A stretch of DNA of 41,913 nucleotides from an uncultured Paracoccaceae bacterium. GTDB lineage: Bacteria; Pseudomonadota; Alphaproteobacteria; Rhodobacterales; Rhodobacteraceae. The position numbers and the translations under genes are program-made. Position 1 is the stretch's first letter; each line of letters begins with the position of its first letter. The notes under the pieces are model-generated. The model searched no databases, was not told the origin of the DNA, and saw only the letters and a list, made by a program, of their open reading frames with translations. Location: the NCBI GenBank assembly GCA_947487205.1, contig CANKVU010000028.1, forward strand, positions 1 to 41,913, written 5' to 3'. Positions 3,587 to 41,346 of this stretch are shown here, piece after piece.

Positions 3587-4813
3587 TCACGCGGCCCGGG
3601 ATTTCGCCCCGACGATCAGGTGGTCGGGTCCGTAGGGGAAGCCGGTGATGTTACGGTTGCCATCCTCCTCGATCACCAGGATGTCGTGCTCCCGGTAGCC
3701 GCCGGCCCCCGGCTGGCCTTCGGGGATGGTGATCATCGGTTCCATCGAGACCACCATGCCGGGCTCCAGCACTGTCTCGCAGTCCTCCCGCAGCTCTAGC
3801 CCCGCCTCGCGCCCGTAGTAGTGGCAGAGGACGCCGAAGGAGTGACCGTAGCCGAAGCTGCGGTACTGCAGCAGGTTCTCCGCGGCATACATCTCGTTCA
3901 GCTCGGCCGCGATCTCGGCGCAGCTCTTTCCGGGGACCAGCAGGTCCTTGCCCCGGTCGTGGATCTTGCAGTTGAACTCCCACAGTTTCAGGTGGGCATC
4001 GCTGGCCTCCTCGGCGAAGAGCGTCCGTTCGAGCGCGACGTAGTAGCCGGCGGCCATCGGGAAGCAGTTCAGGGACAGGATGTCCCCGCGCTCGATCTTC
4101 CGCGCGGTGACCGGGTTGTGGGCCCCGTCGGTGTTGATGCCGGACTGGAACCAGGTCCAGGTATCGAGGAGCTCGGCCTCCGGCCAGACCCGCGCGATCT
4201 CCCGGACCATGGCCTGGGTCGAATGGAGCGCTACCTCATGCTCGGGCGTGCCGACCGCGGTCGCCTCGACCACGGCCGCGCCGCCTAGGTCGGCGATCCT
4301 GGCCATCTCGGTAATATGCGCGATTTCCTCGGCGGACTTGATCATGCGCAGCCGCATCGCCGGCGCCGCGATGTCGACGAACTCCACCCCGGGAAACTCG
4401 GATTTCAGGAGGGTCAGGAGCTCGATGTCCACATGGTCGAACTCGATCCCGATGCGGCGGGCGGATCCGACGAGCCGGCGGACCGCATGGAAGTAGTTGT
4501 CGCGGTTCCAGTCCGTGTAGGTGATGTTCGTCCCGAAAGTGCGGCGCCAGGGCTGTCCGCCATCGATCCCCGCGCTGACCGTAGTGGCCTCGTCCTGGTC
4601 GATCACGAGGCCGTAGCGGCGTCCGAACCGGCAATAGAGGAAGTCGGCGTAGTAGTTGATGTTGTGGTACGAGGTGAAGAGCGCCGCCTCGATTTCGGCA
4701 TTGGCCATGTAGGACCTGATCGCGTCCTGCCGCCGGCGCATTTCCTCGGGCGAGAAGGTGGGCCTGGCCTTGGTGCCATTGCCGATGAAGTTCTGAAGCC
4801 GTTCGCGCTCCAT
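3587..4813 (-). CDS. Creatinase (creatine amidinohydrolase)
   Basis: A 408-residue pita-bread-fold hydrolase that splits creatine into sarcosine and urea. Family blocks are present throughout: FTSYHNINYYADFLYC near the N-terminus, NIDGG-like IDGGQPWRRT, DTWTWFQSGINTDGAHNPVT around the catalytic histidine, FGYGHSFG, and PGMVVSMEPM near the C-terminus. Similarity to Pseudomonas creatinase appears to run end to end (403 residues there). The ATG at 4813 follows an AAAGGA site; an in-frame extension to 4882 lacks support. It is the first gene of the operon, followed by the transporter after 107 bases. Sarcosine oxidase, the next step, is not in the window. Confidence 0.95.
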   Translation of the reverse strand: MERERLQNFIGNGTKARPTFSPEEMRRRQDAIRSYMANAEIEAALFTSYHNINYYADFLYCRFGRRYGLVIDQDEATTVSAGIDGGQPWRRTFGTNITYTDWNRDNYFHAVRRLVGSARRIGIEFDHVDIELLTLLKSEFPGVEFVDIAAPAMRLRMIKSAEEIAHITEMARIADLGGAAVVEATAVGTPEHEVALHSTQAMVREIARVWPEAELLDTWTWFQSGINTDGAHNPVTARKIERGDILSLNCFPMAAGYYVALERTLFAEEASDAHLKLWEFNCKIHDRGKDLLVPGKSCAEIAAELNEMYAAENLLQYRSFGYGHSFGVLCHYYGREAGLELREDCETVLEPGMVVSMEPMITIPEGQPGAGGYREHDILVIEEDGNRNITGFPYGPDHLIVGAKSRAA

Positions 4814-20413: not shown

Positions 20414-22326
20414 TGGCAAAGGATCTCGACCTGATCACGATCGGCCGGTCGTCGGTGGACCTCTACGGAACGCAGGTCGGCGGCCGCCTGGAGGACATGC
20501 GCTCGTTCCAGAAGTATATCGGGGGCTCTCCAACGAACATCGCGGCGGGGACGGCGCGGCTGGGGCTGCGTTCCGCGCTCCTGACGCGCGTGGGCGACGA
20601 GGCCATGGGCCGGTTCATTCGCGAAGAACTGGTGCGCGAGCGGGTGGATGTGACCGGGGTCCAGACCGACCCGGAACGCCTGACTGCCTTGGCGATCCTC
20701 GGCATCGAGGCGAAGGACCGCTTCCCGCTGATCTTCTACCGCACGGATTGCGCCGACATGGCGCTCTCGGAGGAGGACGTCGACGAAGCATTTATCGCCC
20801 GGGCCCGGGCGGTGGTGGCGACGGGGACGCATCTGTCAAACACGCGTACCGAGCGGGCCGTGATGAAGGCCTTGACCCTGGCGCGCGAGCACGGGGCGCG
20901 CACGGCACTCGACATCGACTACCGGCCGAACCTCTGGGGTCTGGCGGGCCACGACGCGGGCGAGGAGCGCTTCATCGCCTCCGACGCGGTGACGGAGAAG
21001 CTGCAGGGGACGCTGTACCTCTTCGACCTGATCGTGGGCACCGAGGAGGAGTTCCACATCGCCGGCGGCACCACCGACACGGTGGCGGCGCTCAGGGCGG
21101 TGCGGGCGCAGTCGGAGGCCACGCTCGTCTGCAAGCGGGGTCCGATGGGGGCCGCGGCCTTCGCCGGCGCGATCCCCGACAGCCTCGACGCGGGCGAGGT
21201 CGGCCCCGGCTTCCCGATCGAGGTCTTCAACGTGCTGGGCGCGGGCGATGGCTTCATGAGTGGCTTGCTGAAGGGCTGGCTCGACGAGGCCGACTGGCCG
21301 ACTGCCCTCAAATACGCCAATGCCTGCGGCGCCTTCGCCGTCTCGCGCCATGGCTGCACGCCGGCCTATCCGTCCTGGGAAGAGCTGCAGGTCTTCTTCG
21401 AGCGCGGCGTCGTGGAAAAGGCCCTGCGCAAGGACACCGAGCTGGAGCAGGTCCACTGGGCCACGAACCGCACCGGCGACTGGTCGGATCTCCGGGTCTT
21501 CGCCTTCGACCACCGGATCCAGCTTGAGGAGATGGACGGAGCCACCCCGGAGCGGATCGGAGCGTTCAAGGAGTTGTGCTTGCGGGCCGCCCTCGATGTG
21601 CGCAACGGCGAGGGGACCTACGGCATCCTGTGCGACGGGCGGCTCGGGGACGAGGCGCTCCACGAGGCTGCGGGGCAGGGGCTCTGGATCGGACGCCCGG
21701 TGGAGTTGCCCGGATCGCGTCCCCTGCGGCTGGAGGAGATCGGGCCCGATTTCGGTGGGCTGGAGGAATGGCCGCGCGAGCACGTGGTGAAATGCCTCTG
21801 CTTCTGCCACCCCGACGACGACGCGGCGACCTGGGCCGACCAGATCGAGACGCTGACCCGGCTCGCCGCGGCGGTGCGGCGCAATCGCCTGGAATTTCTC
21901 CTGGAGGTGATCCCGTCGAAGGTCGGCCCCGTGGACGAGGACACGACCGCCGCGGTGATCCGGAAGATCTACAACGCGGATATCCGCCCGGACTGGTGGA
22001 AACTCGAGGCGCAGGCCAGCGATGCGGCCTGGAAAAAGGCCTGTGCTGCGATCGAGGAGAACGATCCCCGGACCCGCGGCATCGTGGTTCTCGGTCTCGA
22101 TGCCCCGGCGGAAGACCTGCGCGAGGGTTTTCGCCTCGCCGCCCGGCAACCGCTGGTCAAGGGCTTCGCGGTGGGCCGGACGATCTTCGGCGAACCGGCG
22201 CGGGCCTGGATGCGGGGCGAGATCGGCGATGACGCGGCGGTGGCGCAGATGCGGGACAATTTCCGCGACCTGGTGACGGCCTGGGATGCCGCCCGCGCGG
22301 ATGCGAGCGAAAGGGTGACGGCATGA
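20413..22326 (+). CDS. iolC: 5-dehydro-2-deoxygluconokinase fused to DUF2090 aldolase-like domain
   Basis: A 637-residue two-domain protein. Residues 1 to about 325 are a PfkB/ribokinase-type kinase (IGRSSVDLYGTQVGGRLED at the start, YIGGSPTNIAAGTARLG, and the active-site NVLGAGDGFMSGLL near 274-287) that phosphorylates 2-deoxy-5-keto-D-gluconate. From about residue 335 a DUF2090 TIM barrel follows (VFAFDHRIQLEEM, WWKLEA, GRTIFGEPA). In other bacteria this domain occurs as a fused part of IolC and is thought to supply the IolJ aldolase step giving DHAP and malonate semialdehyde. That explains why no separate iolJ is seen. It overlaps iolD by ATGA, indicating coupled translation. Confidence 0.93.
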   Translation: MAKDLDLITIGRSSVDLYGTQVGGRLEDMRSFQKYIGGSPTNIAAGTARLGLRSALLTRVGDEAMGRFIREELVRERVDVTGVQTDPERLTALAILGIEAKDRFPLIFYRTDCADMALSEEDVDEAFIARARAVVATGTHLSNTRTERAVMKALTLAREHGARTALDIDYRPNLWGLAGHDAGEERFIASDAVTEKLQGTLYLFDLIVGTEEEFHIAGGTTDTVAALRAVRAQSEATLVCKRGPMGAAAFAGAIPDSLDAGEVGPGFPIEVFNVLGAGDGFMSGLLKGWLDEADWPTALKYANACGAFAVSRHGCTPAYPSWEELQVFFERGVVEKALRKDTELEQVHWATNRTGDWSDLRVFAFDHRIQLEEMDGATPERIGAFKELCLRAALDVRNGEGTYGILCDGRLGDEALHEAAGQGLWIGRPVELPGSRPLRLEEIGPDFGGLEEWPREHVVKCLCFCHPDDDAATWADQIETLTRLAAAVRRNRLEFLLEVIPSKVGPVDEDTTAAVIRKIYNADIRPDWWKLEAQASDAAWKKACAAIEENDPRTRGIVVLGLDAPAEDLREGFRLAARQPLVKGFAVGRTIFGEPARAWMRGEIGDDAAVAQMRDNFRDLVTAWDAARADASERVTA

Positions 22327-24152
22327 CGACGGTGAGGCTCACGGCGGCGCAGGCGATGGTGCGCTACATCGCGGCGCAGAAGACGGACGAGGGCGTTCCC
22401 TTCATCGAGGGCATCTGGGCGATCTTCGGCCACGGCAACGTCGCCGCACTCGGCGAGGCGCTCTACACCCACCGCGACCGCATCAAGACCTATCGCGGGC
22501 AGAACGAGCAGGGCATGTGCCACGCCTCCATCGCCTACGCGAAGGAGCTCAGGCGCAAGCGGGCCATGGCGGTCACGGCTTCGATCGGTCCGGGATCGAC
22601 CAACATGGTGACGGCCGCGGCGCTGGCGCATGTGAACCGTCTGCCGGTTCTGCTGATCCCGTCGGATGTCTTCGCCAACCGCCAGCCCGATCCGGTGCTG
22701 CAGCAGATCGAGCCCTGGCACGACGGCACGCTGACAGTGAACGATGCCTTCAAGCCGGTCTCGGCCTATTTCGACCGGATCACGCGACCAGAGCAGCTCC
22801 TGTCGGCGCTGCCCCGCGCCTTCGCCACCATGACCGATCCCCTGACCTGCGGGCCGGCGACCATCGCCATGTGCCAGGATGTCCAGGCCGAGGCCTGGGA
22901 CTTCCCCGAGGCCTTCTTCGAGGAGCGGGTCTGGACCTCGCGCCGGCCGCGCCCCGACGAGGAGGACGTGGCGCGCCTGGCGGACGCGGTGAAGGCGGCG
23001 GCGCGACCGCTGATCGTCGCCGGCGGCGGTGTGCATTACTCCGAGGCCTGCGATGCGCTGAGGATCTTTGCCGAGACCCACGGCATTCCGGTCGCGGAGA
23101 CGCAGTCCGGCAAGGGCGCGCTGCCCTGGGATCATCCGATGGCGTTAGGAGGCATCGGCGTCTCGGGATCGGACGCGTCCAACCGCTACGCCGACCAGGC
23201 GGACCTGGTGATCGGGGTGGGGACGCGGTTCCAGGATTTCACCACAGGCTCCTGGCGACTGTTCCAGAACCCCGACGTGCGCTTCGCCCAGATCAACCTG
23301 GCGCCCTACGACGCCCACAAGCGCCGCGCCCTGCCCGTGATCGGCGACGCGAAACGCGGTCTGGAGGCGCTCTCCGCCGCCCTCGGGGATCATGACGCGA
23401 AGGCCGATGTTGCAACGCTCCGGCAGGAGTGGTTCGTCGGGCTCGACGCGGTGACGGACCGGCCCTCGAGCGACAACGAACTGCCTTCGGACCAGCAGGT
23501 GATCGGCGCAGTGCAGCGGTCTTGCGTGGACGAGAGCGTGGTGATGTGCGCCGCCGGCACCATGCCGGGCGAGCTGCAGAAGCTCTGGAAGCCATGGAAG
23601 CCCGGCTCCTACCACATGGAATACGGCTATTCCTGCATGGGCTACGAACTCGCCGGCGCCATGGGCATGAAGATGGCCCGCCCCGACAAGGACGTCATCT
23701 GCATGGTGGGCGACGGCAGCTACATGATGCTGAACGCCGAGATCGCGACGGCCGCGATGATGGGCGTGGGCTTCACGGTCGTCCTCACCGACAACCGCGG
23801 CTACGGCTGCATCAACCGGCTGCAGATGGGCTCCGGCTCCCCCGAGTTCAACAACATGTACGAGCACTCCCTGAAACAGGAGATGCCGCAGATCGACTTC
23901 GTCGCCCATGCCCGGTCGATGGGGGCGGACGCGGTCAAGGTGTCGCGCATAGATGACCTGGAGGAAGAGATCGCGAAGGCCCGCGGCAAGACGCGGCCGC
24001 AGGTGATCCTGATCGACACCACGCCCTATCCGCCCACCGAGATCGGCGGCTTCTTCTGGGACGTCGTGCCGCCCGAGGTCTCGGAGCTCGAAAGCGCCCG
24101 CGCCGCCCGCGCCGAATACGACGACATGGTCAAGGACAGGTTCAAGATATGA
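22323..24152 (+). CDS. iolD: 3D-(3,5/4)-trihydroxycyclohexane-1,2-dione acylhydrolase
   Basis: A 609-residue thiamine diphosphate enzyme that opens the ring of the dehydrated inosose to 5-deoxy-D-glucuronate. It has the three-domain layout of this superfamily: an N-terminal pyrimidine-binding domain (AIFGHGNVAALGEALY, then NEQGMCHASIAYAK with the activating Glu), a middle domain, and a C-terminal diphosphate-binding domain with the metal motif GDGSYMMLNAEIATAAMMGVGFTVVLTDNRGYG near residues 462-490. The start overlaps the iolC stop and its own stop overlaps the iolE start, both by ATGA, so iolC-D-E form a tightly coupled block. No defects were seen. Confidence 0.95.
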   Translation: MTTVRLTAAQAMVRYIAAQKTDEGVPFIEGIWAIFGHGNVAALGEALYTHRDRIKTYRGQNEQGMCHASIAYAKELRRKRAMAVTASIGPGSTNMVTAAALAHVNRLPVLLIPSDVFANRQPDPVLQQIEPWHDGTLTVNDAFKPVSAYFDRITRPEQLLSALPRAFATMTDPLTCGPATIAMCQDVQAEAWDFPEAFFEERVWTSRRPRPDEEDVARLADAVKAAARPLIVAGGGVHYSEACDALRIFAETHGIPVAETQSGKGALPWDHPMALGGIGVSGSDASNRYADQADLVIGVGTRFQDFTTGSWRLFQNPDVRFAQINLAPYDAHKRRALPVIGDAKRGLEALSAALGDHDAKADVATLRQEWFVGLDAVTDRPSSDNELPSDQQVIGAVQRSCVDESVVMCAAGTMPGELQKLWKPWKPGSYHMEYGYSCMGYELAGAMGMKMARPDKDVICMVGDGSYMMLNAEIATAAMMGVGFTVVLTDNRGYGCINRLQMGSGSPEFNNMYEHSLKQEMPQIDFVAHARSMGADAVKVSRIDDLEEEIAKARGKTRPQVILIDTTPYPPTEIGGFFWDVVPPEVSELESARAARAEYDDMVKDRFKI

Positions 24153-32575: not shown

Positions 32576-32905
32576 CTAGGGGCCTGCAATCAGCGCCGTC
32601 GCCTTTGCGCGAACTTCCGCCAATTCTTCGAGCGAAACCTGACCCTTACGCTTCGCCTTTCGAGCTTTCCAATCAAGGCTCCTGACCTGATCGGCCAGAA
32701 CTACGCTCTCGACATCTCCGGCGATCGCGACCTCGAACGGGTAGCCCTTGATCTTGGTCGTCATCGGACAGCACACCATCAGGCCGAACCGGTTGTATCT
32801 CGCCGGGCTCAGGACAAGGGCCGGGCGATGGCCAGTCTGTTCATGGCCGGCCTGGGGGGTAAAATGCAGCCAGAGAATGTCTCCCGCCTCAGGGACATAA
32901 GCCAC
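32576..32905 (-). CDS. mazF: MazF/PemK-family endoribonuclease toxin
   Basis: A 109-residue toxin starting with GTG, two bases after the mazE stop. The MazF pattern is complete: AGDILWLHFTPQAGHEQTGHRPALVLSP (active-site region with the catalytic arginine), CCPMTTKIKGYPFEVAI, and VVLADQVRSLDW. Such toxins cut single-stranded RNA at short motifs and are inhibited by MazE. The toxin seems intact while the antitoxin has an altered 5' end, so its activity in the host deserves attention. The gene is followed by an AT-rich stretch and alaE. Confidence 0.9.
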   Translation of the reverse strand: MAYVPEAGDILWLHFTPQAGHEQTGHRPALVLSPARYNRFGLMVCCPMTTKIKGYPFEVAIAGDVESVVLADQVRSLDWKARKAKRKGQVSLEELAEVRAKATALIAGP

Positions 32906-32907
32906 CG

Positions 32908-33141
32908 TCAGAGGGCTTCGTTGCCGACCGGATCGCCAAAATCGACTTCGCCATGGACGTTCTCCGCTGTGATCCCGTCCAGCAGCTTGTCCAGGTCAAC
33001 AACGGTCTCACGAATTGGATCGATGACGATCCGGCCCTCTTCCTCACGAACGTCGACGGTTGCATCGAGATCGAGGCGGGCTGCCTGCATGATGGCGGAC
33101 GGGATCCGTACAGAGGCACTGTTACCTGTAACGAACCGCAA
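32908..33141 (-). CDS. mazE: MazE-type (AbrB-fold) antitoxin with a displaced 5' end
   Basis: A 77-residue frame. From residue 7 it is a normal MazE: GNSASVRIPSAIMQAARLDLDATVDVREEEGRIVIDP, then an acidic C-terminal tail for toxin binding. The residues before it (MRFVT) do not match the usual first strand (of the type xxIxKWGNS). The only possible start is TTG at 33139-33141, directly preceded in frame by TAA, and no ribosome site is visible. Homology begins exactly where an IS21-like terminal sequence starts (33127 on the plus strand). The insertion seems to have cut off the original start and promoter and supplied a poor substitute. It may be poorly expressed. Confidence 0.7.
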   Translation of the reverse strand: MRFVTGNSASVRIPSAIMQAARLDLDATVDVREEEGRIVIDPIRETVVDLDKLLDGITAENVHGEVDFGDPVGNEAL

Positions 33142-33579: not shown

Positions 33580-33975
33580 ATGGCGACGATCCACGGCAGT
33601 GACGGTGTCATCAAGGTGGGCTCGGGCTTCGCGGCCCTGGGTCAGATCCAGAACTGGTCGCTCGACGTAAAGGCGGACGTGCTGGAAGGCTACAGCATGG
33701 GTGAGGCCTGGAAGAGCTCGAAGAGCGGTGTGCGCTCGTGGTCGGGGTCCGTCGAGTGCTACTTCGACGCGGCCGATGCCGGCCAGGGCGAGATCACCGC
33801 GGGGGACACGGTATCGGTGAACTTCTACCCTGCCGGCGAAGGCGCCGGGAGCAAATACTATTCCGGCACGGTCGTGGTGACGGGGGCGCCGGTTTCGGCA
33901 GAGAAGGACGGCTTCGTCCTGCAGAGCTTCATGTTCAAAGGATCGGGCGAGCTGTCCACCGGTGCGCTTTCGTAA
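33580..33975 (+). CDS. Phage/GTA major tail (tube) protein
   Basis: A 131-residue beta-rich protein beginning MATIHGSDGVIKVGSGFAALGQIQNWSLD and containing SWSGSVECYFDAADAGQGEITAGDTVSVNFYPAG and VTGAPVSAEKDGFVLQSFMFKGSGEL. Length, glycine-rich beta pattern and position directly before a tail assembly chaperone fit a siphovirus or GTA tail tube protein that polymerises into the tail. It starts with ATG after GAAGGGG. It is the first recognisable gene of the cassette; head genes are not found upstream in the window. Confidence 0.75.
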   Translation: MATIHGSDGVIKVGSGFAALGQIQNWSLDVKADVLEGYSMGEAWKSSKSGVRSWSGSVECYFDAADAGQGEITAGDTVSVNFYPAGEGAGSKYYSGTVVVTGAPVSAEKDGFVLQSFMFKGSGELSTGALS

Positions 33976-34018: not shown

Positions 34019-34369
34019 ATGAGTACCGACGCCCGCATGCTCGATATCGCCCGGCAGCATTTTGACCTGATGCGAGGCCGCAGCATTGAGGTTCCAGAAT
34101 GGCAGGTCGATGGCAAGCCCGTCACCGTGCATTTCGACCCAATGACGCTGCACCAGCGCCACCAGCTCCAGCAACGCGCCCGGGGCAACGAGGCGCGGGG
34201 TGTGGCTCTCGCCGTCATCATGTTCGCCAAGGACGCCAACGGCGCGCGGATGTTCGAGGACGACGCCGAGACTCTGGCGGCGCTCGAGACGCAGGTCGAT
34301 CCGGCGGTCCTGTCCCGTATCGCGACGGAGATGACCCGCTCGACGCCGAGGGCCGACCTGGGAAACTGA
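34019..34369 (+). CDS. Phage tail assembly chaperone (gpG-like), zero-frame product
   Basis: A 116-residue acidic, mostly helical protein (EVPEWQVDGKPVTVHFDPMTLHQRHQLQQRA...FAKDANGARMFEDDAETLAALETQVDPAVLSRIATEM) of the tail assembly chaperone type. These proteins coat the tape measure protein before tube assembly. The last codons before the stop are CTG GGA AAC TGA, so the slippery heptamer GGGAAAC ends directly at the stop. A -1 shift would add 43 residues from the next frame. The gene starts at ATG 34019 with an AAGGATT site, 43 bases after the tail tube gene. Confidence 0.8.
   Translation: MSTDARMLDIARQHFDLMRGRSIEVPEWQVDGKPVTVHFDPMTLHQRHQLQQRARGNEARGVALAVIMFAKDANGARMFEDDAETLAALETQVDPAVLSRIATEMTRSTPRADLGN
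34360..34366 (+). promoter_or_regulatory. Programmed -1 frameshift site GGGAAAC
   Basis: The heptamer G GGA AAC (X XXY YYZ pattern, with X=G, Y=A, Z=C) is read in the zero frame immediately before the TGA at 34367-34369. In phage lambda the homologous G gene uses G GGA AAG to make gpGT. After slipping, the ribosome would read CTG ATG AGC and continue to TAA 34495-34497, giving a 159-residue fusion. Confidence 0.8.
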
Positions 34370-34497
34370 TGAGCGCAGGTGGCGAGGCGGCGTTTCTCTA
34401 CAGGCTCGCGAGCCACCTGCGGAAAAGCGTGGCAGAGATCTACGATCTCTCCGAGGAAGAAACGATGGGTTGGGCAGTTTATCTGTCTGCCGCATAA
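34369..34497 (+). CDS. T-domain of the tail assembly chaperone (gpGT extension)
   Basis: A 42-codon frame in the -1 register relative to the upstream chaperone, overlapping its stop by one base (TGATG). It encodes a helical segment FLYRLASHLRKSVAEIYDLSEEETMGWAVYLS, similar in layout to the T part of lambda gpGT and to related small tail proteins (short helices, conserved WAxYL-type end). It can be made as a fusion through the heptamer at 34360 or, less likely, from its own ATG. The T part is thought to recruit the tail tube subunit. Confidence 0.75.
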   Translation: MSAGGEAAFLYRLASHLRKSVAEIYDLSEEETMGWAVYLSAA

Positions 34498-34533
34498 TCA
34501 ACCAGTACTTTGCTGCTTCCAAAAGGATTGCCC

Positions 34534-34746
34534 ATGAAAAAGCGTAGCTTTAGGAAGCAAGCTGCTCTCGATGTAGGTCTACTACTTGCAATCTGGGTCG
34601 GGTTGCTTGCCCTGTTCTACCTAGTTCCGGACTCTGAGTACCCAAGAAAATTCAGAATCCCAAATATAATTTTGTTAGTGAGTATTCCTTTGGTTATGCC
34701 GCTCCAGGTATTTTATCTATATCGAAAGAAGAAGAACAATGAGTGA
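34534..34746 (+). CDS. Small two-helix membrane protein of unknown function
   Basis: A 70-residue protein beginning MKKRSFRKQ, with hydrophobic helices at about residues 11-31 (LDVGLLLAIWVGLLALFYLV) and 42-63, and a basic C-terminus YRKKKNNE. ATG 34534 follows AAAAGGATT. The gene is visibly lower in GC and uses codons such as AAA, ATA and TTA, which are rare in the neighbours. It overlaps the next gene by 8 bases. It lies where a tape measure gene is normally found. A holin-like, immunity or accessory membrane role can be imagined, but nothing shows it. Confidence 0.6.
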   Translation: MKKRSFRKQAALDVGLLLAIWVGLLALFYLVPDSEYPRKFRIPNIILLVSIPLVMPLQVFYLYRKKKNNE

Positions 34747-35470
34747 TAGGAATGGCCAAGAAATCATCGAATGGTATTCGATGGCGCAAGGGGCCTTCCA
34801 CGATGCAATGGCGCATATCACTGGCGTCAAGAGCCTGGCGTGGATCGGCTTAAGTAAGACCACCGGTCTCAACGTCGCCGCCAAATGGCTGGATGATCTT
34901 GAACTATCTAATGAGGATATTCGATCAATAGTTGGCACTAGCGTTGGCGGTGTTCTTGGCGGAATTGGTACCACAGCCGCGCTGACGGCAACGGGACTAG
35001 CTTCTGGTCCAGCCGCCCCGTTTGTTATAGCCGCCGGAGGTTTCTTCGGCGGTTTCGGGGGAGATGTTTTCGGAAGAAGATCTGACGAGTTATTCAGTTT
35101 CGGAAAGACAGGGATTCTTAACCTCTTCGACGCCGACCACACGAAGAATATGGTGCCAATCGGGCGGGTTTCTTCTGCACGTCTGCCCGGACAGTCCGGT
35201 CTCATCGAAGCCGGTCACGAGCTGCACGCGCTCGATGTGATTGCGGAGCAGAATTCGTGGCAGCCCCGAGCGGCCGGAGGCTTGGCGTCTTCCAGCCCTC
35301 TGTCGGACGCTCTCGGCGGGATGCCGTTCATGAACCCCTCTACGCCACTCGGTTTCGGGAACGTCCGGGGGAGCACGGCGGCGCCATCGCTCGGCGAGCC
35401 TCTTTCTTTCCCGGGTGGAAGCCCTGGCTATCCGGCCAGCACTGCGCAGCGAATGAAGACGCTGCAGTAG
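34739..35470 (+). CDS. Glycine-zipper protein of unknown function in the tape measure position
   Basis: A 243-residue protein. Residues 1-60 look globular (EIIEWYSMAQGAFHDAMAHITGVKSLAW). About 64-110 is a glycine-zipper stretch (SVGGVLGGIGTTAALTATGL..., AAGGFFGGFGGDVFG) able to insert into membranes. The last 100 residues are rich in Gly, Ser and Pro and look disordered (GGLASSSPLSDALGGMPFMNPSTP). GC is low up to about 35150 and then rises to the local level, as if the 3' part came from the old tail gene. It has none of the long coiled coil of ordinary tape measures. Possibilities are an unusual short tape measure, a membrane-active effector with the 70-residue protein as partner, or a chimeric remnant. 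Confidence 0.6.
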   Translation: MSDRNGQEIIEWYSMAQGAFHDAMAHITGVKSLAWIGLSKTTGLNVAAKWLDDLELSNEDIRSIVGTSVGGVLGGIGTTAALTATGLASGPAAPFVIAAGGFFGGFGGDVFGRRSDELFSFGKTGILNLFDADHTKNMVPIGRVSSARLPGQSGLIEAGHELHALDVIAEQNSWQPRAAGGLASSSPLSDALGGMPFMNPSTPLGFGNVRGSTAAPSLGEPLSFPGGSPGYPASTAQRMKTLQ

Positions 35471-35550
35471 ACCGGCGCGCCACCGCGACCTGACCAGTAT
35501 CCATCCGACCCGGCGGCCGAGAGGCCCGCCCTGAAGCCTAGGAGGTTCCG

Positions 35551-36189
35551 ATGGCCTTTCTCGACGTGTCCTTTCCGCAGAGCGTGGCGGCGTCCGTGAG
35601 CCGCGGGCTGGTGCGGAAGGTGAACATCCTGACCCTCGCCAACGGCGAGGAGCGGCGCAGCGCCCGGTGGCGCAACTCGCTCCGGGTCTACAACGCCGGC
35701 AGCGGCATCCGCGACCTCGACGATCTCGACGCGGTGGTGCAGCTCTTCGAAGAGGTGGAAGGCACGCTGCACTCCTTCCGCTTCCGCGACTGGGCCGACT
35801 TCCAGTCCGGCGCGACCCGCCAGCCGCCCACCCCGTTCGACCAGACGATCGGAGTCGGCGACGGGTCGACCAAGACGTTTCAGCTGACGAAGAGCTATGG
35901 TCGGACCGCCCCGTATACCCGCGCGATCACCAAGCCCCTGGCCGAGAGCGTGCGCATCGCCGTGGACGGGATCGAGAGGGGCGATTGGTCGCTCGACGCG
36001 ACGAGCGGCGAAGTGACGTTCGTCGGCACGCCGAGCGAGGGTATGGCCGTCACGGCCGGGTTTCTCTTCGACGTGCCGGTCCGCTTTGCCAGCGACCAAC
36101 TCGACGTCGATCTATCCTTCTTCTCGGAGGCCGAGCATCGGGGCCTGGCCCGCGCGCCGGAGATCCAGCTCAAGGAGGTGCGGGAATGA
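35551..36189 (+). CDS. DUF2460 phage/GTA distal tail protein
   Basis: A 212-residue protein matching the DUF2460 family of GTA and prophage tail modules (RcGTA gene 12 position). Typical blocks are FLDVSFPQSVAASVSRG, LANGEERRSARWRNSLRVYNAG, LFEEVEGTLHSFRFRDWADF, and the C-terminal VRFASDQLDVDLSFFSEAEHRGLARAPEIQLKEVR. It is thought to be the distal tail protein joining the tube to the baseplate hub. The start has a GGAGG site. Its stop overlaps the start of the DUF2163 gene by ATGA. It appears intact. Confidence 0.9.
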   Translation: MAFLDVSFPQSVAASVSRGLVRKVNILTLANGEERRSARWRNSLRVYNAGSGIRDLDDLDAVVQLFEEVEGTLHSFRFRDWADFQSGATRQPPTPFDQTIGVGDGSTKTFQLTKSYGRTAPYTRAITKPLAESVRIAVDGIERGDWSLDATSGEVTFVGTPSEGMAVTAGFLFDVPVRFASDQLDVDLSFFSEAEHRGLARAPEIQLKEVRE

Positions 36190-37480: not shown

Positions 37481-40400
37481 CCATGTTGGCTTTCACGACC
37501 GTAGGGTCGGCCGCGATCTCGACCGGCTCGAGTCTGTTTGGGGGGTCGCTCGGGGCGAGCATACGCAATCCCAAGCTCGGGCTCTTTGGGGGGAGCCTCT
37601 TCAGCGGCGTCGCCGGGAACCTCTTCAATGCCATGACGGGCCCGACACATCGGCAGGACGGCCCCCGTCTCGACAATCTCGACATCAAGCTGCCGCAGGA
37701 GGGATCCCCGATCCCCGTCGTCGAGGGGGTCATGCGGGTCTCCGGCCGGCTGATCTGGTCCGGCGACATTCTCGAGACCAGCGAGACGGAACGGACAGGC
37801 GGCGGCAAGGGGAGCCCCAAGGTCGAGACGCGGACATTCAATTACGTCTGCACCTTCGCGGTGGCGATCGCCGATTGCCGCATGGGAGCGATTCGTCATC
37901 TCGGCCGGGTCTGGGCCGACGACAAGCTCATCGATCTCAAGAGCGGCGACTACACGTACCGCTTCCACGACGGCCGCGAGGACCAGGAGCCGGATCCGGC
38001 GATCGTCGCCCGCGAAGGAAGCGCCCCGGCCTATCGGGGCCTGTCGTACATCGTCTTCGAGAACTACAATCTCACCGACCACGGGAACCGTATCCCCCAG
38101 TTCGGCTTCGAGGTGTTCGGCCCTTCGGGCGAGATGGAGGAGCTGATCCGGGGTGTCGACATCATCCCCGGTTCGACGGAATGGGGCTACGCGCCGGAGA
38201 TCGTCGAGGTCGAGGCGGGCTATCGCACCAAGTACGCGAACGCCGCGCGCCACGTCACGGCCTCGGACTGGACCACATCGATCGACCACCTCCAGGGCGT
38301 CCTGCCCCGATGCGAGACCGCCGCCCTTGTCGTCGCCTGGTTCGGCACCGACTTGCGCGCAGGGTCGTGCCGGATCGAGCCGCGGGTGGAGTCGAAGGAT
38401 GCCGAGACCGACCGGCCCTGGTCGGCTGGTGGGCTCGATCGCCACGAGGCGAGGCTGGTCACGCAGGTCGATGGCGGACCGGCCTACGGGTCGAGCCCCG
38501 ACGGCCAGTCGATCATCGACGCGATCCGGGACCTCAGGGACCGCGGCATCCGAACCGTGCTCTATCCCTTTGTGATGATGGACATCGAGACGGGCAACGA
38601 TCTGCCCGATCCCGACGATGCGGGCACAGCCGGCCAGCCGGCCTATCCCTGGCGCGGGCGCATCCGTCTGGCCAATGGCGGTGATGCGGCTCAGGGCCAG
38701 ATCGCCACCCTCCTCGGGACGGCCGGTCCGGGCGATTTCTCGAGCATTTCGGGCGTTCCGCCGGTCTATTCCGGGCCGGACGAGTGGAGCTACCGGCGGT
38801 TCATCCTCCACCTGGCCGCGCTGGCGCGGGCCGCGGGCGGGGTGGATGCCTTCGTCATCGGCTCGGAGATGGTGGGTCTCACGACCGCGACCGATACGCC
38901 CGGAGAGTATCCCTTTGTCGACGGCCTCGTGTCCCTGGCGACCGATGTCCGGACCATGCTGCCGGACGCGAAGCTGTCCTAAGCGGCCGACTGGAGCGAG
39001 TACCACTCGCACCGGTCCGGGTCGGATGTCTACTTCCACCTCGATCCGCTCTGGGGCAGCTCCGACATCGACTTCGTCGCGATCGACAATTACCTGCCGA
39101 TCGCGGATTGGCGTGCCGGGACCGACCATCTCGACCACGATCCCGGGAAGGGTTGGGGCAGCATCTACGATCTTGCCTATCTCAAGGCGAATATCGAGGG
39201 CGGCGAGTACTACGACTGGTATTATGCCTCCGAGGCGGACCGGGACGCCCAGTCCCGCACCCCGATCCAGGACGGCGCCCATGGCGAGGACTGGATCTTC
39301 CGCCAGAAGGCGATCCGCGACTGGCACGGCAATCCCCACCGCAATCGCCCCGGCGGCGTGCGGGAGGCGCAGGCCACCCCTTGGGTGCCCGGCTCGAAGC
39401 CCGTCTGGTTCACCGAGATCGGCTGCGGCGCGGTCGACCTGGGCGCCAACCAGCCCAACAAGTTCCTCGACCCGAAGTCGAGCGAGAGCACGCTGCCCCA
39501 TTACAGTCGCGGCATCCGCGACGACTTCATGGCCCGCCAGTATATCCGCGCGACCATCGAATGGTGGCGCGACAACGGCGCCGGGGTGGTCGATCCCGCC
39601 GACATCCTGGTCTGGGCCTGGGACGCCCGGCCCTGGCCCGAGTTCCCCGCCCATGGCGAGACCTGGTCGGACGCGGACAACTGGACCACGGGCCACTGGC
39701 TGAACGGCCGCGCCGGCGCCGCGCCGGTCGCGGAGATGACGGAGCGCTGGATGCGAACCGTCTACGGCTTCGGCGCGGACGACTTCGACGCGTCCCGGGC
39801 CCACGGCCAGGTCGACGGGCTCATGGCCTCGGGCGGCGACAGCCTGAGCGAGGTCCTGCGTCCCGTGGGGGCGCTGACGGGGCTGAACGTCTTCGAGCGC
39901 GAGGGAAAGATCCGGTTCCAGAGCGAGGCGACCCTGCCCCGGGGCAGGACGATCGTGCCGGAGTCCCTCGTCCAGGCCGAGGACAGGCCGAGCCATACCA
40001 TCACGCGCCCCGCCCTCCACGAGACCCCGCGATCGGCCCTGATCGATTATATCGACGTGGAGCGGGATTACGAGATCGGCACGGTCCGGGCGGCGCGCCT
40101 CGACAATCCCGGCAGCGCGGAGCTGCATTCCCAATTCGCCATCGCGTCCAGCCGGGACCGGATGTACGGCCAGGTCGAAGCGTTGCTATCCCGCGCGGCC
40201 CAGTCGGTCGAGGAGCTGCACTTCTCGGTCGCCGGGGACGATCCGATCGCGCCGGGCGAGATCATCGATTTTCCGGCGGCCGGTGGCGGCGCGAAGACGT
40301 ACCGGGTGGACGAGGTCACGCGGGGCAGCGCTTATCGCGTACGCGCGACGCAGCTGACCGAGGCCGAGCCGGCCGAAGTTCGCCCGGGCCGTCGCCGCAC

Positions 40401-41346
40401 GTCCCGTCCGGAGCTGCCGAGCCGCCGCGTCGCGCCGATCTTCCTCGACCTGCCGCTGCTGCCCGCGATCGACATGGCCGACACGAGCGGGTTCATCGCG
40501 CCCCACGCGGCGCCCTGGCCGGGCGGCGCCGATCTCTACCGCTCCCTCGACCCGGAGACGGGCTTCGCGTTCGTTCAGAGGATCATCGCTCCGGGTTCCA
40601 CGGGCCGGACCGCGACACCCCTCGCACCGGCACAGACCTGGCTATGGACGGAGACGGGCCTGGATATCGTGATGCGGCGCGGGCAACCTGTCCGCCGCAG
40701 CGAGCGGGATGTTCTGGCGGGCCGGAACGCCCTTGCCGTCGAACATGCGAGCGGGACGTGGGAGATCCTGCAGTTCCAGGAGGCGGAACTCGTCGACACG
40801 GACACCTACCGGATCCGGCGCCTGATCCGCGGCCAGCTCGGCACCGAGGTCGCTATTCCGGACGCCGCCACGCCAGCGGGGGCCCGGGTGGTCCTCCTCG
40901 ACGACGGCCTAGCCGAGATCCGGCTCGCCGGGAAAGACCTCGACACGCCCTTCTACTGGAAGATCGTCCCGGCCGGCGCCGATCCGACCGATCCGCTGCA
41001 TGCCGTGCACCGGCATACGTTCCGTGGCCTCGGGCGGCGCCCCTACGCGCCCGCGCATCTGCAGGCGCGTGTCACAGGCCAGACCCTGGCGCTCGACTGG
41101 ATCCGGCGCACGCGGATCGAGGGCGATATCTGGCCCGCCCACGGGGACGTTCCCCTGGGCGAAGCGTTCGAGCGCTACCGCGTCACCCTTCGCGCGGACG
41201 GCCAGACCCTCGCGGACGTGGAGACGGAGACTCCGCGGATCGAGATGCCGCTCCCCGCGGTCCAGGGGCAACTGGAGATCGCCGTCAGCCAGATCTCCGA
41301 ATGCTACGGCCCCGGTGCCGCCGCCCAGGCGGTGCTGACCCTCTGA
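37477..41346 (+). pseudogene. GTA-TIM baseplate/host-specificity gene with an internal ochre stop
   Basis: The full frame would give a 1289-codon protein. N-terminal glycine-rich part (GSAAISTGSSLFGGSLGAS), then INxPxEGxxIPVVEG-like LPQEGSPIPVVEGVMRVSG, a GTA TIM-barrel domain at about residues 360-715 (LYPFVMMDI to VWAWDARPWPEFP), a Phage-tail_3 domain near 780-960, and a C-terminal Rcc01698-type part. TAA at 38980-38982 (codon 502) interrupts LPDAKLS-stop-AADWSEYHSH; homologues have Tyr here (S-Y-AADWSEY), so TAC to TAA is likely. Both halves keep the same frame and good conservation. Tail fibre or baseplate function would be lost unless the stop is read through. Confidence 0.88.

Follow-up and report, generated by a model that had tools for sequence, protein, structure and literature searches.

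Does the end of a small tail gene in an alphaproteobacterial prophage direct ribosomes into a second reading frame? The stretch of DNA analyzed here (the window) spans an entire contig, 41,913 bases long, and our view ends at its right edge. A gene of 116 codons (34019-34366), followed by a TGA stop at 34367-34369, occupies positions 34019..34369 of the plus strand; we call it G. Its junction reads GAC CTG GGA AAC TGA TGA GCG. The original prediction singled out GGGAAAC as a slippery heptamer touching the stop codon, and this was borne out: the heptamer (34360..34366, plus strand) lies in the G frame as G_GGA_AAC and directly abuts the TGA. GGGAAAC occurs four times in the window when both strands are counted. 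An open −1 frame extends from 277 nt upstream of the G stop to a TAA at 34495-34497. The first new codon after slippage would be CTG (34366-34368), and the T-type extension (T; 34366..34497, plus strand, including the TAA) would contribute 43 codons, which agrees with the extension and the two product lengths proposed originally, 116 and 116 + 43 = 159 residues. The original prediction did not mention an ATG in the T frame at 34369..34371 (plus strand), which overlaps the G stop and is a possible coupled start.

The proteins encoded on either side of this junction are recognizable as tail components. The gene preceding G (33580..33975, plus strand) encodes the major tail (tube) protein (phrog_1407 major tail protein, E = 1.7e-21), with 42 to 51% identity to the product of the gene that precedes G in five relatives. 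G matches the tail assembly chaperone family phrog_16513 over G residues 6 to 116 (E = 4.4e-30). T aligns with the C-terminal end of this profile of 160 positions, with E = 7.7e-5 for the 42 residues from the ATG and E = 3.3e-6 (profile positions 113 to 155) when the junction residues are included. Modelled G had a mean pLDDT of 78.5, and its first BFVD match was the 160-residue chaperone of RcRhea, at 48% identity; the same chaperone was the first BFVD match of the T model (E = 0.021). AlphaFold2 predicted T as three helices with a mean pLDDT of 86.5, the first helix formed by residues 6 to 20 of the T peptide, in keeping with the helical extension anticipated. In an alignment of 14 T parts, residues K, L, E, E, and W are invariant, and the T frame is kept as protein in all 14. 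Pfam and NCBIfam gave no matches for G or T of the window. Pfam matches to the 14 T members were weak (best E, 0.02), and the 8 G members gave three weak matches, with Phage_TAC_11 (GTA-gp10) matching one member at E = 0.015. A search of the plasmid collection with G gave no match.

Several known systems bear on the assignment. With the chaperone loci of Cronusvirus phages (RcCronus, RcRhea, and Dinoroseobacter phage vB_DshS-R4C, here R4C; phrog_16513), the window shares the order tail tube, G, T, the heptamer GGGAAAC directly before TGA, and the same T domain. It differs in that the window copy lies in a remnant and has no recognizable tape measure gene behind T. The resemblance to gpG/gpGT of phage lambda, the precedent named in the original prediction, is one of arrangement: there too a tail tube gene is followed by G and then by T in the −1 frame, and the lambda heptamer is GGGAAAG, although it ends 15 nt before the G stop, compared with 0 nt here. 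In sequence anatomy, the window has the lambda-type placement: the site closes G, G follows the tail tube gene, and slippage would join G to T in the −1 frame. Homology to lambda G was not detected by profile comparison, and the relationship of T to lambda T is weak (hhalign E = 9.7e-4 with a probability of only 22%, over 38 columns collinear at the start of T). The first PDB match of modelled G was the HK97 tail assembly chaperone 2ob9, with a TM score of 0.50 and a Foldseek probability of 1.00, but at 16% identity and E = 0.012; no PDB match reached E = 0.001.

If the site functions as its anatomy suggests, most ribosomes would terminate at the TGA and yield the 116-residue chaperone, while a smaller fraction, with tRNA-Gly paired to GGA and tRNA-Asn to AAC, would slip back by one nucleotide onto GGG and AAA, continue in the −1 frame, and add the 43-residue three-helix T domain to give a 159-residue protein. 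By analogy with lambda, in which the tape measure protein is bound by G and tube subunits are recruited by the T end, the two products may have corresponding roles. The site in the window would descend from a Cronusvirus-like phage of alphaproteobacteria.

Conservation of the heptamer, which had been set as the test that could refute the prediction, was examined in homologous loci. An in-frame heptamer of the form X_XXY_YYZ was found near the G stop in all 34 loci that we judged homologous and that have a visible G stop (near-duplicates included), ending 0 nt before the stop in 26 and 3 nt before it in 8, and the T part is conserved as well. These loci comprise 31 of the first 32 examined (25 at 0 nt and 6 at 3 nt), the phage HTVC026P (0 nt), and two further loci, L011 and L013, each with A_AAA_AAC at 3 nt. 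The letters were GGGAAAC in 9, AAAAAAC in 19, AAAAAAG in 4, and AAAAAAA in 2. GGGAAAC itself is confined to the nine rows nearest the window, namely, the window, RcCronus, RcRhea, R4C, and five genome loci; the more distant loci carry the other letters. The 34 do not represent 34 independent events, since they include the near-duplicates RcCronus/RcRhea, L003/L018/L020, L028-L032, and L034/L036/L037; T of L018 is cut off by the end of its contig. Eight entries (L002, L004, L010, L019, L024, L033, L035, and L041) repeat records already counted, and RcSaxon and the second RcCronus and RcRhea records were left out of the count, as was L042, whose contig ends inside G. Three apparent homologues were rejected: L012 (genome G197) was judged a chance match, lying antisense to another gene, which we take to encode a succinate dehydrogenase flavoprotein, and L015 and L016 were judged to be chance matches, no tail genes being recognized in their frames. 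Even with this limited independence, the change of letters between the GGGAAAC and AAAAAAC groups under an unchanged slippery rule is, at the level of sequence, strong support for a programmed site.

Codon usage at the end of G points the same way. Eight close loci were compared (the window, L043, L046, RcCronus, R4C, L044, L045, and L047), with pairwise identities of 30 to 87% in protein and 32 to 73% at third positions; they are not independent, L043 grouping with L046, and L044 with L045 and L047. G has 15 invariant residues with degenerate codons in these loci, and the only 2 encoded by a single codon throughout (8/8) are those of the heptamer, GGA and AAC; each of the other 13 uses two to four codons. 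GGA accounts for 24 of 355 glycine codons in the tail genes of the close loci, the last three codons of each gene being left out. Taken together, the comparisons lead us to conclude that G ends in a site of programmed −1 ribosomal frameshifting, with a probability of about 0.9.

Other explanations of the same arrangement were weighed against this conclusion. In-frame X_XXY_YYZ heptamers are not very rare as single cases, with 9 at 4,029 in-frame positions of 13 hand-picked ORFs of the window; from this background, a heptamer at one of the two stop-adjacent positions would be expected in ∼0.4% of genes. A chance heptamer next to a random open frame is nevertheless untenable, because the heptamer is present in 34/34 homologous loci and its codons are frozen. 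More substance attaches to the proposal that T is a small gene in its own right, with translation beginning at the ATG at 34369-34371 by termination-reinitiation at the TGATG overlap, which would make frameshifting unnecessary. The overlap is present not only in the window but also in RcCronus, RcRhea, L044, L045, and L047, and RcGTA presumably has a small separate ORF near the equivalent place, which we counted in favor of a coupled start. In R4C, L043, and L046, however (3 of the 8 close loci), ATC replaces the ATG (TGATC), and T is conserved nevertheless. The first ATG, GTG, or TTG in the whole open −1 frame lies 62 nt past the G stop in R4C and L043, 107 nt in L046, 59 nt in L022, and 77 nt in HTVC202P (the last two being distant relatives), in each case beyond the first modelled T helix; all five still conserve T. 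It is possible that ATC serves as a rare start codon in R4C, L043, and L046, but the frozen heptamer would then stay unexplained; coupling accounts neither for the frozen GGA and AAC codons nor for the recurrence of differently lettered heptamers in the same frame. As a replacement for frameshifting, we therefore regard the coupled start as very improbable; as a side route in the window, it is possible.

Some points do count against frameshifting itself. Slippery sites ending in AAC may be weak in bacteria, and in the window an ATG overlaps the stop and the downstream RNA is ordinary. This RNA contains a possible stimulatory stem-loop at 34374..34421 (plus strand), with a 10-bp closing stem pairing 34374-34383 with 34412-34421 and beginning 7 nt past the heptamer. 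The 84-nt stem-loop region has a minimum free energy of −36.5 and a z score of −2.31 against dinucleotide shuffles. Against synonymous recoding, the window gave a z score of −0.13, and 13 of 23 control stretches were as low; the stem-loop, being no stronger than synonymous recoding, was rejected as proof of frameshifting. RcCronus was similar (z = −0.36; 7 of 22 control stretches as low). In the remaining 6 of the 8 close loci, the downstream RNA was more stable than synonymous recoding, with z scores from −1.55 (R4C; 2 of 22 controls as low) to −3.92 (L047). Averaged over the eight loci, the z score was −2.0, compared with −0.25 for 245 control stretches taken from the same genes; none of 20,000 resamplings was as low, the loci being non-independent. 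A separate recoding test placed 6 of 8 loci at ≤5% with a 50-nt stretch, and R4C at 8.7% with 70 nt. A downstream RNA stimulator is thus likely in part of the close group and unproven for the window copy.

Other candidate determinants of slippage were considered. GAGGG, 7 nt upstream of the heptamer, was discarded as a Shine-Dalgarno-like stimulator, since by eye it is not kept in the relatives. The host genome has tRNA-Gly(TCC) and tRNA-Asn(GTT). The idea that a second lysine tRNA, tRNA-Lys(CTT), explains AAC in place of AAG was unsupported: tRNA-Lys(TTT) was the sole lysine tRNA among the 34 typed of 43 tRNA matches, a set that leaves out nine long matches (81 to 87 bases). A more tentative idea follows from the close spacing of heptamer and G stop, 0 or 3 nt in 34/34 loci. 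The stop codon could itself be part of the signal, with the ribosome slipping while it awaits release factor; the speed of termination would then set the GT:G ratio, and the pause would make workable those heptamers that end in AAC, which in E. coli constructs are weaker than those ending in AAG. We consider this possible but doubtful.

Whether the site still serves tail assembly is a separate question, and one that the surroundings of G bear on. In relatives, T is followed by a tape measure gene, annotated in five phage records and present as an ORF of 621 to 680 codons in five genome loci. The corresponding place in the window (34498..35550, plus strand) is lower in GC (49.9% for 34500-35199, compared with 59 to 74% in the flanking tail gene stretches) and holds instead a 78-codon ORF (34510-34746) and a 243-codon ORF (34739-35470). 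No match to the tape measure proteins of relatives was found in the window, either with the ORFs of five loci or with seven tape measure queries; as a control, the starts of the RcCronus and R4C proteins each matched L043, L044, L046, L047, and L007 (L007 being R4C itself). The L043 tape measure protein likewise had no match in the genome that carries the window, in a search with this single query and no positive control. Beyond the gap, tail genes resume with a distal tail protein of the DUF2460, Rcc01695 family (35551..36189, plus strand; PF09343, E = 1.3e-65; TIGR02217, E = 3.5e-60). They extend to a tip gene (GTA_TIM), which from 37537 to 41343 aligns with RcCronus gp18 over residues 9 to 1301 of 1,301, at 49% identity, and is interrupted by exactly one in-frame stop (38980-38982), which suggests that the tail module is decaying. 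Upstream of the tail tube gene, we found no match to any ORF of the 6-kb upstream flanks of five relatives, including the head genes encoded in the 6 kb before their G. Of the 14 genomes of the genus, only the host's own contained G, and the same was true of the tail tube gene.

The locus is, then, a defective tail-module remnant of a prophage. With no recognizable tape measure gene in this degraded prophage, the heptamer and the open −1 frame are probably vestigial: the signal would have worked in the ancestor phage, whereas today nothing would be made from the locus and it would have no function in tail assembly. This reading is compatible with programmed frameshifting as the original purpose of the site. 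The lack of matches to tape measure and head genes, the stop in the tip gene, and the restriction of G and the tail tube gene to 1 of 14 genomes of the genus all favor a vestige; set against it, the frames of G, T, the tail tube protein, and the distal tail protein are all open. Having no recognizable tape measure gene beside it, the window copy may not be under selection now. A distant relative of a capsid-region gene of L043 is encoded on another contig of the host genome (G000 contig C26, ∼21789-22661; E = 1.8e-11, 36% identity; L049, L086), perhaps as part of a different prophage, and none of the window's tail proteins had a match in the 16 kb around it.

A search of 394 genomes of the host family gave five matches, of which four are real (the host's own genome, G295, G229, and G304) and that in G197 is the chance match L012; in 385 genomes of the host class, phrog_16513 gave three, the host's own and the chance matches L015 and L016. 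A scan of genome contigs confirmed five loci, and nine phage records match G. The expectation that ordinary annotation would miss the short extension held for some of these records and not for others. Those of RcCronus and RcRhea include a two-piece joined CDS over G and T besides G alone, whereas in R4C (L007 1830-1985), HTVC202P (L009 1827-2003), and HTVC026P (L090 1830-2006), the heptamer and T frame are present and G alone is annotated; in phi3LM21, a short separate ORF starts from an ATG inside the T frame. A frameshifted chaperone is thus of a known kind, already annotated in close phages, and the distinctive feature is the heptamer abutting the stop. In the excerpts available of the paper on R. 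capsulatus phages (PMC8601537), the chaperone frameshift is treated as usual, with no clear evidence of it in RcZahn, and the RcCronus site is not discussed. In the PRFect paper (PMC10885494), the heptamer-to-stop distance averages 26 nt in the training set and 36 nt in the Xu set, in contrast to the stop-adjacent heptamers here. Among the titles listed in literature searches, none was devoted to the stop-adjacent site of chaperones of the phrog_16513 or Cronusvirus type. The comparative data show that a −1 frameshift signal at the tail chaperone has been maintained in this group of alphaproteobacterial phages, and the stop-adjacent placement offers a clean test case of whether termination speed sets the GT:G ratio.

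The two ORFs in the place of the tape measure gene have relatives elsewhere. The small hydrophobic ORF (34510-34746; residues 5 to 75) and the 243-codon ORF (residues 2 to 49) have adjacent counterparts on a Palleronia plasmid (L087 5779-5991 and 6001-6144), and residues 140 to 177 of the latter resemble the end of a protein encoded beside a DUF4123 gene on a Thioclava plasmid (L088). The pair at 34510-35470 is a possible cassette of an effector and its partner. Just upstream of the phage remnant, a small gene pair on the minus strand (32576-33141) encodes what we take to be a MazF/PemK toxin and its antitoxin, and an annotated MazF/MazE pair also lies near the relative of the cassette on the Palleronia plasmid (L087 4315-4856).
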